Made by a program: the position numbers and the translations under genes. DNA of 64,000 bases from an uncultured Oscillospiraceae bacterium (GTDB lineage Bacteria > Bacillota > Clostridia > Oscillospirales > Oscillospiraceae). How positions within the stretch are numbered: position 1 is the first letter of the stretch; each line of letters starts with the position of its first letter. The notes below the pieces were generated by a model. The model had not been told where the DNA came from. It saw only the letters and a program-made list of their open reading frames with translations, and searched no databases. Of the stretch, positions 27,344 to 61,005 are shown one piece after another. The stretch spans positions 11,916 through 75,915 of the forward strand of contig CAKTNN010000006.1 in the NCBI GenBank assembly GCA_934589065.1, written 5' to 3'.

Positions 27344-27410
27344 CCGCAATTGAAAAAAATCCCTCTGCGCTGAAGAAAAAGAGAAAATACGGTAAAAAAG
27401 CCTTTCAATA

Positions 27411-27653
27411 GCCTCGCAGAGTTTGGCGGCGTAAGCCGACAAATAAAATCAAATCATTTTCTGTCGGGGCGTGTACCTGACAGAAAATACATCTCAGGCT
27501 GTAAGTCTAGCGCCGCAGCGCTGTGCAGAGCGCAACCGCCGTAGGCGGCTCTTAGCGCGTCGCAGTGCGAGTTGTTCGCCTACGGCGAACAAGGAGTGCG
27601 CGCAGCAGACTGCAAAAGAAATGTCGGAAAAGCCCGTAAGGGATTTTTCGACA
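27411..27653 (+). repeat. Structured intergenic repeat, copy A (long form)
   Basis: This 243-base segment matches copy B at 59470-59654. The first 96 bases differ at three positions and the last 89 at several; copy A has 58 extra bases (27507-27564). Internal pairings: ATTTTCTGTC with GACAGAAAAT; TTGTTCGCC with GGCGAACAA around a TAC loop; AGCGC/GCGCT and CCGCC/GGCGG inside the extra part; and a terminal stem TGTCGGAAAA/TTTTTCGACA. It lies between two minus-strand operons and holds no convincing gene. AAAAAATCCCTCTGC occurs on both sides (27354-27368 and 27657-27671). Confidence 0.85.
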
Positions 27654-27663
27654 CTTAAAAAAT

Positions 27664-27687
27664 CCCTCTGCCCCGAAGGGCAGAGGG
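27664..27687. terminator. Terminator after the PTS operon
   Basis: CCCTCTGCCC and GGGCAGAGGG form a perfect 10-bp stem with loop CGAA, flanked by A-rich and T-rich runs so that it can act on the minus strand after the EIIC gene. A partial copy of its left arm is found at 27361-27368, on the other side of repeat copy A. Confidence 0.85.
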
Positions 27688-27719
27688 AAAAGAAACAGGA
27701 ACAATCAGGGAGGGCGTAT

Positions 27720-28988
27720 TTAGGCGATAAGCTTGGCGATAAGGCCTTCCACAATGCCCCACAGGGAGAAGTCCTGACCACCGTAAACCAGCATCCAGCT
27801 CTGGATGGTGTTGTTGAAGAAGTAAGCACCGAAGCCTACCAGCAGCACCATAACAATGCCGTTGACAATGGAAGCGATGATGCAGCCACGAACGCCGCCG
27901 TAAGCATTGGCAACGATGGCAGCACAGCCGCCTTCAAAGAAGCAGGTGAAGGCCAGAGGAATAACCACGGTGGGGAACACGTTCAGAGCGGTGCAGACCA
28001 GGATGGTCACAACGGAAGCAGCCAGGCCGCAGATGAAGCCGATGATCAGAGCGTTGGGAGCAACGTTGAAGATCACGGGGCAGTCCAGAGCGGGGATAGC
28101 ACCGGGAACAACCTTGGTAGCAATGCCCTGGAAAGCGGGAACGATCTCAGCAATCAGCATACGGACACCCAGCAGCATAACGGTAACGCCCATGCCGAAG
28201 GTGATGGTCTTGGTGAAGTAGTAAGTGAAGGCACGGTCGTAGCCCAGAACCTCGGCGGGATTGTAGCCGTTGATTCTCAGCAGCAGAGCCATGACCAGGT
28301 AGGTAAGCAGAATGACGATGGAGCCGGTGATGGAAACCTCACGCAGGAAGTTGAGTCCCTGGGGGAACTTCAGGTCTTCGGTGGACTGCTTGGGGTCGCC
28401 GGTAACCTTGGCAACGCCGGCAGCAATCAGAGACAGAGTGGTTGTGGGGTGAGCGATGGAGAAGGAATCGGTGCCGGTAACCTTCTTAACCAGGGGATGC
28501 ATCAGGTTGGGGGCAACGATCATGTAAACAGCGGTAAAGATGGCAGCCAGGATAATGAGCTTTGCGCCGCTCAGACCGGCATCTACACCGGCAGCAATGA
28601 ATACGTAGGGGAACCAGTACAGCATGTGACCGGTCAGGAACACAGTCTTGTACTTGGTGAAGCGGGCAAACAGCAGGTTGATGGCAAAGCCGATGATCAT
28701 AACAATGCCGATCTCGGTGCCGTACAGGCCGCCGATATCCACAGAGGTGGAAGGAATGGCCTTGGGCATAATGGTGCTGAAAGCAGTACCTACGTCGGTA
28801 ACGGTACCGGACACGATGCTGACGCCCTGGTTCAGAACAAAGTAACCAATGGCGGTCATAAAGGTGCCGCGGATAACCTCAGATGCGGACTTCTTCTGGA
28901 GCAGCAGGCCAACCAGTGCAATCAGGGAAATAAAAATGGCGCCCTGTCCGAAGATCTCTTTGACAATAAAGTCAAGAACAGCGTTCAT
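27720..28988 (-). CDS. PTS transporter subunit EIIC, ascorbate (UlaA/SgaT) type
   Basis: The 422-residue membrane protein has about ten to eleven helices and the UlaA/SgaT pattern (NQGVSIVSGTVTDVG, GFAINLLFARFTKYK, GHMLYWFPYVF, GCIIASIVNG). It transports and, with EIIA and EIIB, phosphorylates its substrate; L-ascorbate is the known substrate of characterised relatives, but other sugars are possible. It is third in the operon EIIA-EIIB-EIIC. It lacks nearby ascorbate-degrading enzymes. Confidence 0.92.
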   Translation of the reverse strand: MNAVLDFIVKEIFGQGAIFISLIALVGLLLQKKSASEVIRGTFMTAIGYFVLNQGVSIVSGTVTDVGTAFSTIMPKAIPSTSVDIGGLYGTEIGIVMIIGFAINLLFARFTKYKTVFLTGHMLYWFPYVFIAAGVDAGLSGAKLIILAAIFTAVYMIVAPNLMHPLVKKVTGTDSFSIAHPTTTLSLIAAGVAKVTGDPKQSTEDLKFPQGLNFLREVSITGSIVILLTYLVMALLLRINGYNPAEVLGYDRAFTYYFTKTITFGMGVTVMLLGVRMLIAEIVPAFQGIATKVVPGAIPALDCPVIFNVAPNALIIGFICGLAASVVTILVCTALNVFPTVVIPLAFTCFFEGGCAAIVANAYGGVRGCIIASIVNGIVMVLLVGFGAYFFNNTIQSWMLVYGGQDFSLWGIVEGLIAKLIA

Positions 28989-35539: not shown

Positions 35540-35645
35540 TGGCGCAGCGGGTGCGGTGATCCCATCGCGGGCGCATAGCCCTTCGTCTGTCACACAACTC
35601 CCCATTCTGACAGCACTTCACGCGGGATCTCCTACTCTGTTCGTC
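35540..35645 (-). promoter_or_regulatory. Tetrahydrofolate (THF) riboswitch upstream of folT
   Basis: Reading the minus strand, the conserved blocks occur in order: AGAGTAGGAGATC, CCGCGTGAAGTG, GAATGGGGAGTTGTGTGACAG, CGAAGGGC, CGCGATGGGATCACC and GCACCCGCTG. This is the arrangement of the folT-associated THF aptamer (GCGTTAAGTG and GAATGGGATG blocks). High folate should favour the downstream terminator and stop import. Confidence 0.92.
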
Positions 35646-59309: not shown

Positions 59310-59420
59310 TGCTTGTTCTTCCGGTGTAAGCGGCAGGAAGGGTGACTTTTCGGGAGAATCTGCTATACTATACTCAATTTTTGTCCTCAAAAAATAGGAC
59401 GATAGATGGAAGCTAAAACA

Positions 59421-59454
59421 GAAATACCGGCAGCCTTGTGCTGCCGGTATTTTG
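59421..59454. terminator. Terminator-like hairpin, left copy of a 34-base direct repeat
   Basis: AATACCGGCAG and CTGCCGGTATT form a stem around a five-base loop. The identical 34 bases recur at 59661-59694, on the other side of repeat copy B. Confidence 0.85.
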
Positions 59455-59469
59455 TAGCTTGTCAAAAAA

Positions 59470-59654
59470 GCCTCGCAGAGTTTGGCGGCGCAAGCCGACA
59501 AATAAAATTAAATCATTTTCTGTCGGGGCGTGTACCTGACAGAAAATACATTTCAGGCTGTAAGTGTGCGAGTTGTTCGCCGTAGGCGAACAAGGAGTGC
59601 GCGCAGCAGACTGCAGAAAATTTGTCGAAAAAGCCCGTAAGGGGTTTTTCGACA
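59470..59654 (+). repeat. Structured intergenic repeat, copy B (short form)
   Basis: This 185-base segment matches copy A at 27411-27653 without the 58-base insert. It has ATTTTCTGTC/GACAGAAAAT, TTGTTCGCC/GGCGAACAA around a GTA loop (TAC in copy A), and a terminal stem TGTCGAAAAA/TTTTTCGACA. It lies between two convergent genes. It is flanked on both sides by an identical 34-base terminator-like sequence. Confidence 0.85.
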
Positions 59655-59660
59655 GCCTGA

Positions 59661-59694
59661 GAAATACCGGCAGCCTTGTGCTGCCGGTATTTTG
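59661..59694. terminator. Terminator-like hairpin, right copy of a 34-base direct repeat
   Basis: Identical to 59421-59454. It directly precedes the stop of the convergent zinc-finger gene and can serve as its terminator on the minus strand. Confidence 0.85.
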
Positions 59695-59699
59695 GACGA

Positions 59700-59957
59700 T
59701 TATAGGGAGCTTTTGCTGCATTCCGCCAGAAATGCCTGCTTCCACTCCGGAAAGTCCGGGGAGGGATCCTTTGCACGCCGATTCCATTGGACCAGGTGCA
59801 GCTCATAAAGCTCTCGTTCTCCGGCGAGGACATCCTGCCGAATCCGTTCCGCCAGCTCGTTGCATTCGGAGCAAAGGCGAACCTGGCAATTCCCGTTTTT
59901 TTGGGTATAGAACATATCAAATAACTTTTTGGTTTTTCCGCAGCAGTCACATTTCAT
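59700..59957 (-). CDS. Small zinc-finger-like protein
   Basis: The 85-residue product starts MKCDCCGKTKKLFDMF and has two Cys pairs (CDCC at residues 3-6 and CSEC near 31-34), followed by a charged helical tail. The start at 59957 lies 9 bases after AAGGAGG; other in-frame ATGs are too close to or far from that site. The function is unknown. Confidence 0.65.
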   Translation of the reverse strand: MKCDCCGKTKKLFDMFYTQKNGNCQVRLCSECNELAERIRQDVLAGERELYELHLVQWNRRAKDPSPDFPEWKQAFLAECSKSSL

Positions 59958-60026
59958 AGGCATTGCCCTCCTTTTTGCCATCATAGCACAGAAACGGACA
60001 ATTTGCAATCGGCGATTCCGGCAAAA

Positions 60027-60056
60027 AAATGCCCCTCCGAAAAATTCGGAGGGGCA
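60027..60056 (-). terminator. Terminator after tsf
   Basis: GTGCCCCTCCGAA and TTCGGAGGGGCA form a stable stem followed by a T-run on the minus strand. Confidence 0.9.
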
Positions 60057-60075
60057 CTTGCTTGTAAGGGAAAAC

Positions 60076-61005
60076 TTACTTTGCAGCACCGGCAATCTGG
60101 GCGGCGACTTCTGCGGCGAAGTCATCAGCCTTCTTTTCAATGCCTTCGCCCTTCACATAGTGAATGGCGTCTACAAAGGTCACCTTGCCGCCCAGCTTCT
60201 TGGCGGCATCGGCAATGTAGCCTTCCACGCTGCCCTGGAACAGGTCAGAGCGGACGAACTCCTGCTGCAGCAGGCAGTTATCCTTGAAGAAAGCGTTCAT
60301 CTTGCCGGCAGCGATCTTTTCCTTGACCTGAGCGGGCTTGGAAGCCATCTTGGGATCGTTGTCCATCAGAGCAACCTGAACCTGCAGCTCGTGGTCTACG
60401 TCAGCCTGGGGAACCAGGGACTTATCCCAGTACTTGGGGTTCATAGCGGCAATCTGCATAGCAACGTTCTTGCCGATTTCGGTGGCATCGATGCCGCCTT
60501 CCACAGCCAGATTCACCAGAACGCCGTGGGTGCCGCCTGCATGAACGTAGGCAACGGAGGTGTTCTCGGGGAAGCGGGCAAACCGGCGGATCTGCATATT
60601 CTCACCGATGGACATAACCTTCTCCTGCATGATCTCGGTAACGGTCAGGTTGGAGTCGGGGTAGGTGCAAGCCTTCAGAGCTTCCACATCGGCGGGGTTC
60701 TGCTTGGCAACGACCACAGCCAGGTTCTTTACCAGATCCATAAAGGCATCGGTCTTGGCGGCAAAGTCGGTCTCGGAGTTCACCTCGATCACGACGCCCA
60801 CACCGTCAACCACGGTAGCGAAGGCAACGCCCTCGGCAGCAACGCGGTCAGCCTTCTTGGCAGCTTTAGCCAGGCCCTTTTCACGGAGCCAGTCTACAGC
60901 CTTGTCCATGTCGCCATCGGTAGCCTGAAGGGCCTTCTTGCAGTCCATCATGCCAACGTTGGTCATTTCACGCAGCTTCTTAACATCCTGAGCGGTAAAA
61001 GCCAT
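60076..61005 (-). CDS. tsf: Elongation factor Ts
   Basis: EF-Ts exchanges GDP on EF-Tu. The 309-residue product has the family N-terminus (VKKLREMTNVGMMDCKKAL) and the NSETDFAAK segment. Length is normal. It is co-transcribed with rpsB, 27 bases upstream. Confidence 0.98.
   Translation of the reverse strand: MAFTAQDVKKLREMTNVGMMDCKKALQATDGDMDKAVDWLREKGLAKAAKKADRVAAEGVAFATVVDGVGVVIEVNSETDFAAKTDAFMDLVKNLAVVVAKQNPADVEALKACTYPDSNLTVTEIMQEKVMSIGENMQIRRFARFPENTSVAYVHAGGTHGVLVNLAVEGGIDATEIGKNVAMQIAAMNPKYWDKSLVPQADVDHELQVQVALMDNDPKMASKPAQVKEKIAAGKMNAFFKDNCLLQQEFVRSDLFQGSVEGYIADAAKKLGGKVTFVDAIHYVKGEGIEKKADDFAAEVAAQIAGAAK

Follow-up and report, generated by a model that had tools for sequence, protein, structure and literature searches.

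A folded intergenic repeat of Oscillospiraceae, probably a MITE with IS1182-type ends that duplicates terminator hairpins

What kind of element is the repeat that stands twice, 32 kb apart, in the window, by which we mean the whole 64,000-nt stretch of Oscillospiraceae DNA that was analyzed? A sequence-only reading had described the two copies as structured and intergenic, with modular length variants, and could not match them to a known element. We asked how the repeat is bounded, how widely it occurs, what may move it and why its interior folds as it does.

Copies in the window and across the family

Alignment and a repeat search agreed on both structured copies, which comprise 27407-27506 plus 27565-27653 (copy A) and 59466-59565 plus 59566-59654 (copy B) and are 96% identical over the left part (100 nt) and 90% identical over the right part (89 nt). 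Their folding z-scores against dinucleotide shuffles were -6.3 and -8.5, respectively, and the 58-base insert with hairpins of its own that had been reported for copy A was recovered (Table 1). In the window a covariance model of the repeat family, R1, gave strong matches to these two copies alone, at 157.8 and 119.4 bits; a score of 17.7 bits, next in rank, belongs to the reverse strand of copy B. The complete unit proved longer than first described, and around copy B it is flanked by perfect 35-nt direct repeats, each a palindrome that begins AGAAATACCGGCAGCC. Copy A has the same terminator-element-terminator layout in decayed form, its left terminator being a 22-nt relic, and its right terminator lies 3' of a PTS EIIC gene (27720-28988, minus strand; gene call and Pfam). 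No Pfam match was found for the ORF at 59700-60140, next to copy B. The ORFs that overlap copy B cross its ends and look spurious, and the element has no transposase gene.

Table 1. Coordinates of the two copies, their parts and their flanking terminators in the window
Feature	Positions	Strand	Basis
Host terminator palindrome, left duplicate, copy B	59420-59454		Arms 59422-59434 and 59440-59452 fully complementary
Left terminal inverted repeat (TIR), TAGCTTGTCAAAAAAGCC	59455-59472	+	Imperfect complement of 59641-59659, by inspection
Complete element, copy B	59455-59659	+	205 nt, bounded by duplication
Mini-stem CTC-GCA-GAG, conserved	59472-59480	+	A3 columns 3-5 and 10-12
Hairpin A	59481-59502	+	Helix 2; 99.2% of cells paired, both-sided change in 5/7 pairs
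Hairpin B, 13 bp, 7-nt loop	59515-59547	+	Helix 3; 99.3% paired
Stem C enclosing hairpin D	59554-59613	+	Helices 4-6; 95.7-99.6% paired
Right-end hairpin of element, T-rich arm, terminator-like	59623-59654	+	Arms 93% complementary
Right TIR (reverse complement CAGGCTGTCGAAAAACCCC)	59641-59659	-	Sequence
Host terminator, right duplicate, copy B	59660-59694		3' of minus-strand ORF 59700-60140
Decayed left terminator relic, copy A	27354-27375		Duplication score 16; 2 mismatches against 27657-27678
Copy A, left end degraded	27411-27653	+	R1 119.4 bits over 27411-27615
58-nt insert of copy A, own hairpins	27507-27564	+	Between stem C 5' arm and hairpin D
Right-end hairpin of copy A	27622-27653	+	Sequence; paired in predicted fold
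Right host terminator, copy A	27657-27688		Inverted repeat 27663-27673 / 27678-27688

The repeat is absent from the known Rfam families, as had been supposed: nothing over the element reached gathering, group II introns included, and the best nearby score was 22.5 bits against a gathering threshold of 55. A group II intron or any other Rfam RNA was rejected, all scores being below threshold. The sole Rfam match at gathering in the window is a THF riboswitch (RF01831, 84.7 bits, 35543-35641, minus strand). No published description of the repeat family was found in the open-licence literature searched.

A collection with one genome per species (84,980 species) has 27 stretches that contain an exact match to the 21 bases at the heart of hairpin B. 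RGIG5575, a sheep-colon Oscillospiraceae MAG, accounts for 23 of the 27, and the remainder lie in Oscillibacter ER4, Pseudoflavonifractor MSJ-30, the Oscillibacter MAG RGIG7329 and the MAG RGIG5428, whose two copies look identical to two of those in RGIG5575. When these five related genomes were searched with R1 (E<=0.01), as the earlier reading had proposed, three of them gave 63 (ER4), 40 (RGIG5575) and 11 (MSJ-30) matches; RGIG7329 had 3, all weak, and RGIG5428 had 2, the weakest matches overall being partly reverse-strand or decayed. The count of two describes the window, not the repeat family. The prospect that only two copies exist is thereby contradicted, and the prospect of a known MITE came half true, in that the repeat is probably a MITE, of a family for which we found no description. 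In another genus the element measures ~204 nt (query 790-993), near the 205 nt of copy B.

R1 was positive in 142 of 250 Oscillospiraceae genomes, in a search that scored 12 candidates per genome under stricter filters, and in 4 of 391 Clostridia genomes (E<=1e-5), of which three had already counted as positives of the family sample and the remaining one has a score of 37.7 bits. Given this class sample, and the E. coli records, in which no blastn match was found, the element looks largely confined to Oscillospiraceae. Thirty element places lie on one 861-kb replicon, and Vescimonas fastidiosa has 14 copies in 148 kb made up of stretches chosen around known matches. A phage collection contained 2 records with the element and a plasmid collection 1. 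Copies in phage-labelled MT836333.1 (6598-6797) and in the viral-labelled contig L028 (11563-11754), the latter with a terminator duplication, may be host fragments. At L316:16927-17106 (NZ_AP023416.1) an element copy is overlapped by an annotated gene for a hypothetical protein, which was probably miscalled.

Flanking terminators and insertion sites

Direct duplication of the left and right flanks was scored on a test set of 95 matches, 91 of them distinct and 90 with enough flank. A score of at least 14 was reached at 44 of the 90 loci, both window copies included, and the other 46 showed no duplication; none of 2000 mismatched controls, with left and right flanks taken from different loci, reached that score. 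V. fastidiosa, which lay outside the test set and was examined later, showed the duplication in 6 of 14 copies against 0 of 2000 controls. The matched duplications are 17-37 nt long, locus-specific in sequence and palindromic where complete. Most start ~15 nt to the left of a GCCTCG motif and ~41 nt to the right of the core, and the element ends are imperfect inverted repeats of ~17 nt, of the form CAGnnTGTCnAAAAA, which vary by lineage. The left TIR motif of copy B recurs at the left ends of copies in other genomes and of IS1182-family ISs, and its right TIR motif at the right ends of copies elsewhere.

Left and right terminators might also be alike because they pair together as one closing stem, rather than through duplication on insertion. 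The palindromes are able to pair across the element, and compensatory differences are seen at L008 and L024; however, at L010, L018, L116 and copy B the loops and unpaired flanks are identical too, autonomous ISs of ~1.5 kb carry the same flanks, and a second terminator copy is missing at the 46 loci mentioned above. We regard a closing stem as very improbable.

Two further observations concern the flanks. At L091, L157 and L349 the duplicated terminators have mutually inverted loops (TTTTT versus AAAAA, AACT versus AGTT), which suggests that small inversions of hairpins have occurred. At five RGIG5575 loci (L002, L004, L011, L016 and L026) the left and right terminators come from different loci, in matching sets, which reflects either recombination between copies or a chimeric assembly.

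The positions of the copies relative to genes, a map that had been called for, were read from annotated genes in V. fastidiosa, where all 14 copies lie 3' of at least one gene. Seven stand between convergent genes, seven between co-directional genes and none between divergent genes, in a gene table that is incomplete and from which one 60-codon hypothetical CDS overlapping an element was set aside. At 6 of the 7 co-directional loci the gene that ends at the element stands on its right. A count of orientation based on ORFs was not used, because spurious ORFs touch the element.

Comparison with relatives bears on how single copies arrived. At the gene junction of the ER4 copy C79:14673, none of 8 relatives has an R1 match (best 14.2 bits, partial). 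The aligned blocks are 4-113 nt apart in seven of them as opposed to 192-209 nt in ER4; the eighth (G214, L301) keeps just one terminator-like hairpin, the homologue of the left hairpin in the ER4 copy, with the rest gone, and in ER4 the remaining element follows directly behind this hairpin. This pair fits either an insertion into ER4 at the foot of a terminator or a loss from G214, and a readable target duplication was not found at this site. At the site of one RGIG5575 copy, the relative G477 has no duplicated terminator, and G447 and G450 have inserts that R1 does not match, flanked by terminators that are duplicates or near-duplicates, the G450 insert having ends of the element's form (AGCTTGTCAAAAAG / TCAGACTGTCGATAACC). 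Because G447 and G450 hold other inserts at this site, one spot has seemingly been hit repeatedly by different elements. Loci L258 and L256 (G450, G447), and also L257, contain other small elements between duplicated or near-duplicated terminators, and several unrelated MITEs may share IS1182-type ends. For empty sites, no close relative of the window was found among 400 genomes (best 79% over the flank), and in the genus of G130 the best flank match, 73%, was too diverged.

Proposed IS1182-family partners and known mobile elements

In ER4, an IS of 1569 bp with the ends CAGTCTGTCAAAAAAG and CAGTCTGTCGAGGAAC stands between perfect copies of a 29-bp terminator palindrome. This IS and the element copies L049, L052 and L153 start at the left with the same 16 nt, and the 488-aa transposase of the IS matches the NCBIfam IS1182 equivalog at 393.8 bits (cut-off 270). 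Element-like ends combined with a terminator duplication are found in the ER4 IS (genome G002) and in the ISs of G428 (25 bp with 1 mismatch, the transposase frame being interrupted by one TAG), G071 (flanking palindrome duplicated with an inverted loop) and G122 (perfect 31-bp palindrome duplication). Direct repeats in the IS1182 family range from 0 to 60 bp (ISfinder figure). Among 22 IS1182 loci from the family search, end pairs matching those of the element were present at 5 of 14 in element-positive genomes (G002, G016, G071, G122 and G076) and at 0 of 8 in element-negative genomes; a sixth listed pair, in G079, is unlike the element ends. Two further IS loci, in G428 and G426, are with and without the end pair, respectively, and no flanking duplication was found at the G016 and G076 loci, where the ends match.

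Presence of an IS1182 transposase did not follow presence of the element (28 of 142 positives, 25 of 108 negatives; p = 0.53), nor did matches over the cut-off (16 positives against 8 negatives, p = 0.39) or PF13751 (2 of 12 positives, 3 of 8 negatives). When the ER4 transposase was used as the query, 8 of 28 known positives gave a match, in four cases to a short fragment; a match was also obtained in 1 of 20 negatives, and none in G447 or G450, two genomes of unknown element status. The genome tally by itself lends no support to a link, and in our reading the MITEs persist while their transposases are gained and lost.

Because its ends and target habit match those of IS1182-family ISs, we assign the repeat to the MITEs: it is probably a non-autonomous element of Oscillospiraceae, ~200 nt long, with IS1182-type ends, moved in trans and duplicating terminator hairpins. 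The earlier statement that it matches no known element holds for the interior and fails for the ends and the target habit, which are those of IS1182-family ISs of related bacteria. Seen directly at the sequence level are dispersed copies at differing sites, terminator duplication, IS-like ends and one copy absent from syntenic relatives; an IS1182-type transposase as the mover is what we infer. On inspection, the element has just its terminal 10-16 nt in common with the ER4 IS, which speaks against an origin from that IS by internal deletion.

In the mechanism that we propose, an IS1182-type transposase, acting in trans, would insert the element at the base of a rho-independent terminator hairpin, each strand being cut at one foot of the hairpin, which may be extruded. 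Gap filling would then copy the whole palindrome and leave the order terminator, element, terminator. The doubling of the hairpin is what suggests cuts on opposite strands, one per foot, and insertion would be nearly harmless because a terminator remains on both sides. Such a scheme, read from many loci, suggests a way in which terminators can serve a mobile element as safe harbours, with the target recognized by shape, the hairpin copied and a stop signal kept on each side.

According to the available portions of PMC5678879 and PMC4923244, the staphylococcal elements IS1272 and TnSha1 target stem-loops, several of them confirmed transcription terminators, with no primary sequence preference, and the break occurs at the stem base, the stem-loop being deleted or replaced with no duplication; blunt cuts were deduced for them (PMC4923244, in part). 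The present element resembles them in its hairpin target habit, and the transposase of its ER4 partner belongs to the same IS1182 family. Whereas the stem-loop is lost in those accounts, here the hairpin is duplicated whole, and unlike IS1272 and TnSha1 the element has no transposase and has a conserved fold. The contrast with the hairpin-destroying IS1272 makes the cut geometry of IS1182-type enzymes testable. Read as a MITE, the repeat is a new family with a mobilizer of known kind and a target duplication unlike that published for IS1272.

Bacterial MITEs, as portrayed in part of PMC10969869, are likewise short and non-coding, with TIRs, direct repeats, many intergenic copies and a transcript predicted to fold; the present element differs in having, besides the mini-stem, five helices that covary across a bacterial family. 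The direct repeats of QMITE2 in that account are 7-9 bp, whereas here a whole terminator is repeated. The pneumococcal repeats SPRITE, BOX and RUP are also structured and intergenic and insert into one another, and SPRITE is terminator-like; they are set apart by description alone, terminator duplication and IS1182-type ends going unmentioned in the portions of PMC10969869 and PMC3049150 consulted.

A REP-like element moved by a RAYT-type Y1 transposase would also be hairpin-rich, intergenic and high in copy number. REP and REPIN sequences with RAYT move in trans. They are abundant palindromic intergenic repeats, in the excerpts of PMC2817692 and PMC3116915. A Y1 match was obtained in 6 of 16 positives and 5 of 16 negatives, in a search that would miss a divergent Y1 enzyme below threshold. 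The other 10 positives gave no Y1 match, and the element, unlike REP and REPIN, has TIRs and a long target duplication, which makes such an origin extremely improbable.

Fold of the interior

RNAalifold predicted 40 pairs from 18 sequences, 22 of them with both sides changed. In the A3 alignment, 98.3% of cells are paired and 28 of 40 pairs change on both sides, as do 10 of the 13 pairs of hairpin B (helix 3), and the covariation score is 0.461, compared with 0.159 after shuffling and no more than 0.092 when the structure was slid; because A3 was fitted to the model it leans towards the fold, and its cells stand for sequences rather than events. The first pair of the mini-stem is CG in 80 rows, GC in 7, UA in 2 and GU in 1, and the unpaired stretches beside it are conserved. 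On the plus strand, 353 cells are G.T and 18 are A.C; with four mostly-G.T pairs excluded the cells are 49 G.T, 18 A.C and 44 other mismatches, and each of those four is G.T in between 61 and 88 of the 91 distinct sequences. The excess of G.T over A.C points to a single folded strand, the plus strand, whose fold shape is kept across the family while the sequence turns over. Covariation and loop inserts together bear out the description of a structured repeat with modular length variants, and the covariation test that had been suggested came out in its favour.

Within RGIG5575 (23 rows), most both-sided changes are inherited differences between two types of hairpin D, and the one-sided stem changes are 2 G.T, 5 A.C and 1 other, so filtering after insertion is not visible there. 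Small as these numbers are, they suggest that selection acts on source copies rather than on each locus. A tentative explanation, which we hold at somewhat under even chances, is that the fold is kept because source copies, and not each host locus, need folded ssDNA or RNA to propagate.

The fold could instead be a by-product of DNA hairpin turnover, by template switching and whole-hairpin replacement that correct the two arms together, with no selected structure. In line with such turnover, both-sided exceed one-sided standard-pair changes by 26:8 in RGIG5575 and 123:27 in ER4 (cells, not events), entire hairpins D differ among subfamilies, and duplicated terminators show loop inversions. Correction of this kind would, however, erase the four pairs that are so widely G.T, and the conserved unpaired stretches beside the mini-stem also speak against it. 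Divergence in RGIG5575 is lower in stems than at unpaired sites (0.033 versus 0.110), though hardly so in ER4 (0.21 versus 0.24), and we consider turnover as the whole explanation to be quite unlikely.

The copies in ER4 are the hardest to fit, and IS1182-type mobility does not account for them. The 21 copies tested are the top by score of 63 matches, a list that runs to 23.8 bits, and decayed copies were thereby left out. All 21 keep the fold and score at least 91 bits, a duplication was found at none, each is followed by a different hairpin, and by our reading of the sequences the right TIR is kept in at most 2 of 20. That the fold is kept in these copies without duplications and mostly without TIRs is the strongest reason to suppose that the core has a life apart from IS1182-like ends. 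The core may itself be mobile, as a structured nucleic acid with a single-strand fold that spreads through Oscillospiraceae and that IS1182-type ends captured in some of the lineages, a possible but rather doubtful reading; equally doubtful is its further part that in ER4 the core persists or moves without such ends, its loops receiving other small mobile modules. Were it true, transposition would need folded cargo, as RNA or ssDNA, besides the target hairpin.

These ER4 copies, kept in fold without duplications, mostly without TIRs and with a different hairpin behind each, would also suit a host-beneficial or trans-acting structured RNA gene, made up of core and terminator and spread by duplication, for which the IS1182-like ends are secondary. 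The conservation of wobble pairs on one strand, with or without the four G.T-rich pairs, fits such a gene, as does the tolerance of loop inserts, which known structured RNAs share. On the other hand, the left end has no apparent promoter-like sequence on inspection, and read-through from upstream would give the opposite strand at 6 of the 7 co-directional V. fastidiosa loci. Presence and copy number vary between species, the ER4 copy at C79:14673 is absent from all 8 relatives, and the stem mutations of young copies look unfiltered, in small numbers. We hold an RNA gene to be unlikely.

The MITE that we favour would contain a covarying fold like that of a functional RNA, at dozens of copies in some common gut bacteria, and it may influence termination and genome rearrangement. 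In searches for structured RNAs, covariation alone could mislabel the element as a riboswitch or sRNA.

Inserts are found in the loops of several copies. Several diverged copies among the ER4 loci L326-L331 have a module of ~110 nt (TCACCGTCG...TTTCCA) within the hairpin B loop, and the module is present elsewhere as well (L332, L333); another module lies inside hairpin A at L327, L330 and L331. In Pseudoflavonifractor MSJ-30 (L043:795-1573) the loop of hairpin B is split by ~630 bp, which include, on the other strand, a possible gene for a membrane protein of 134 aa.
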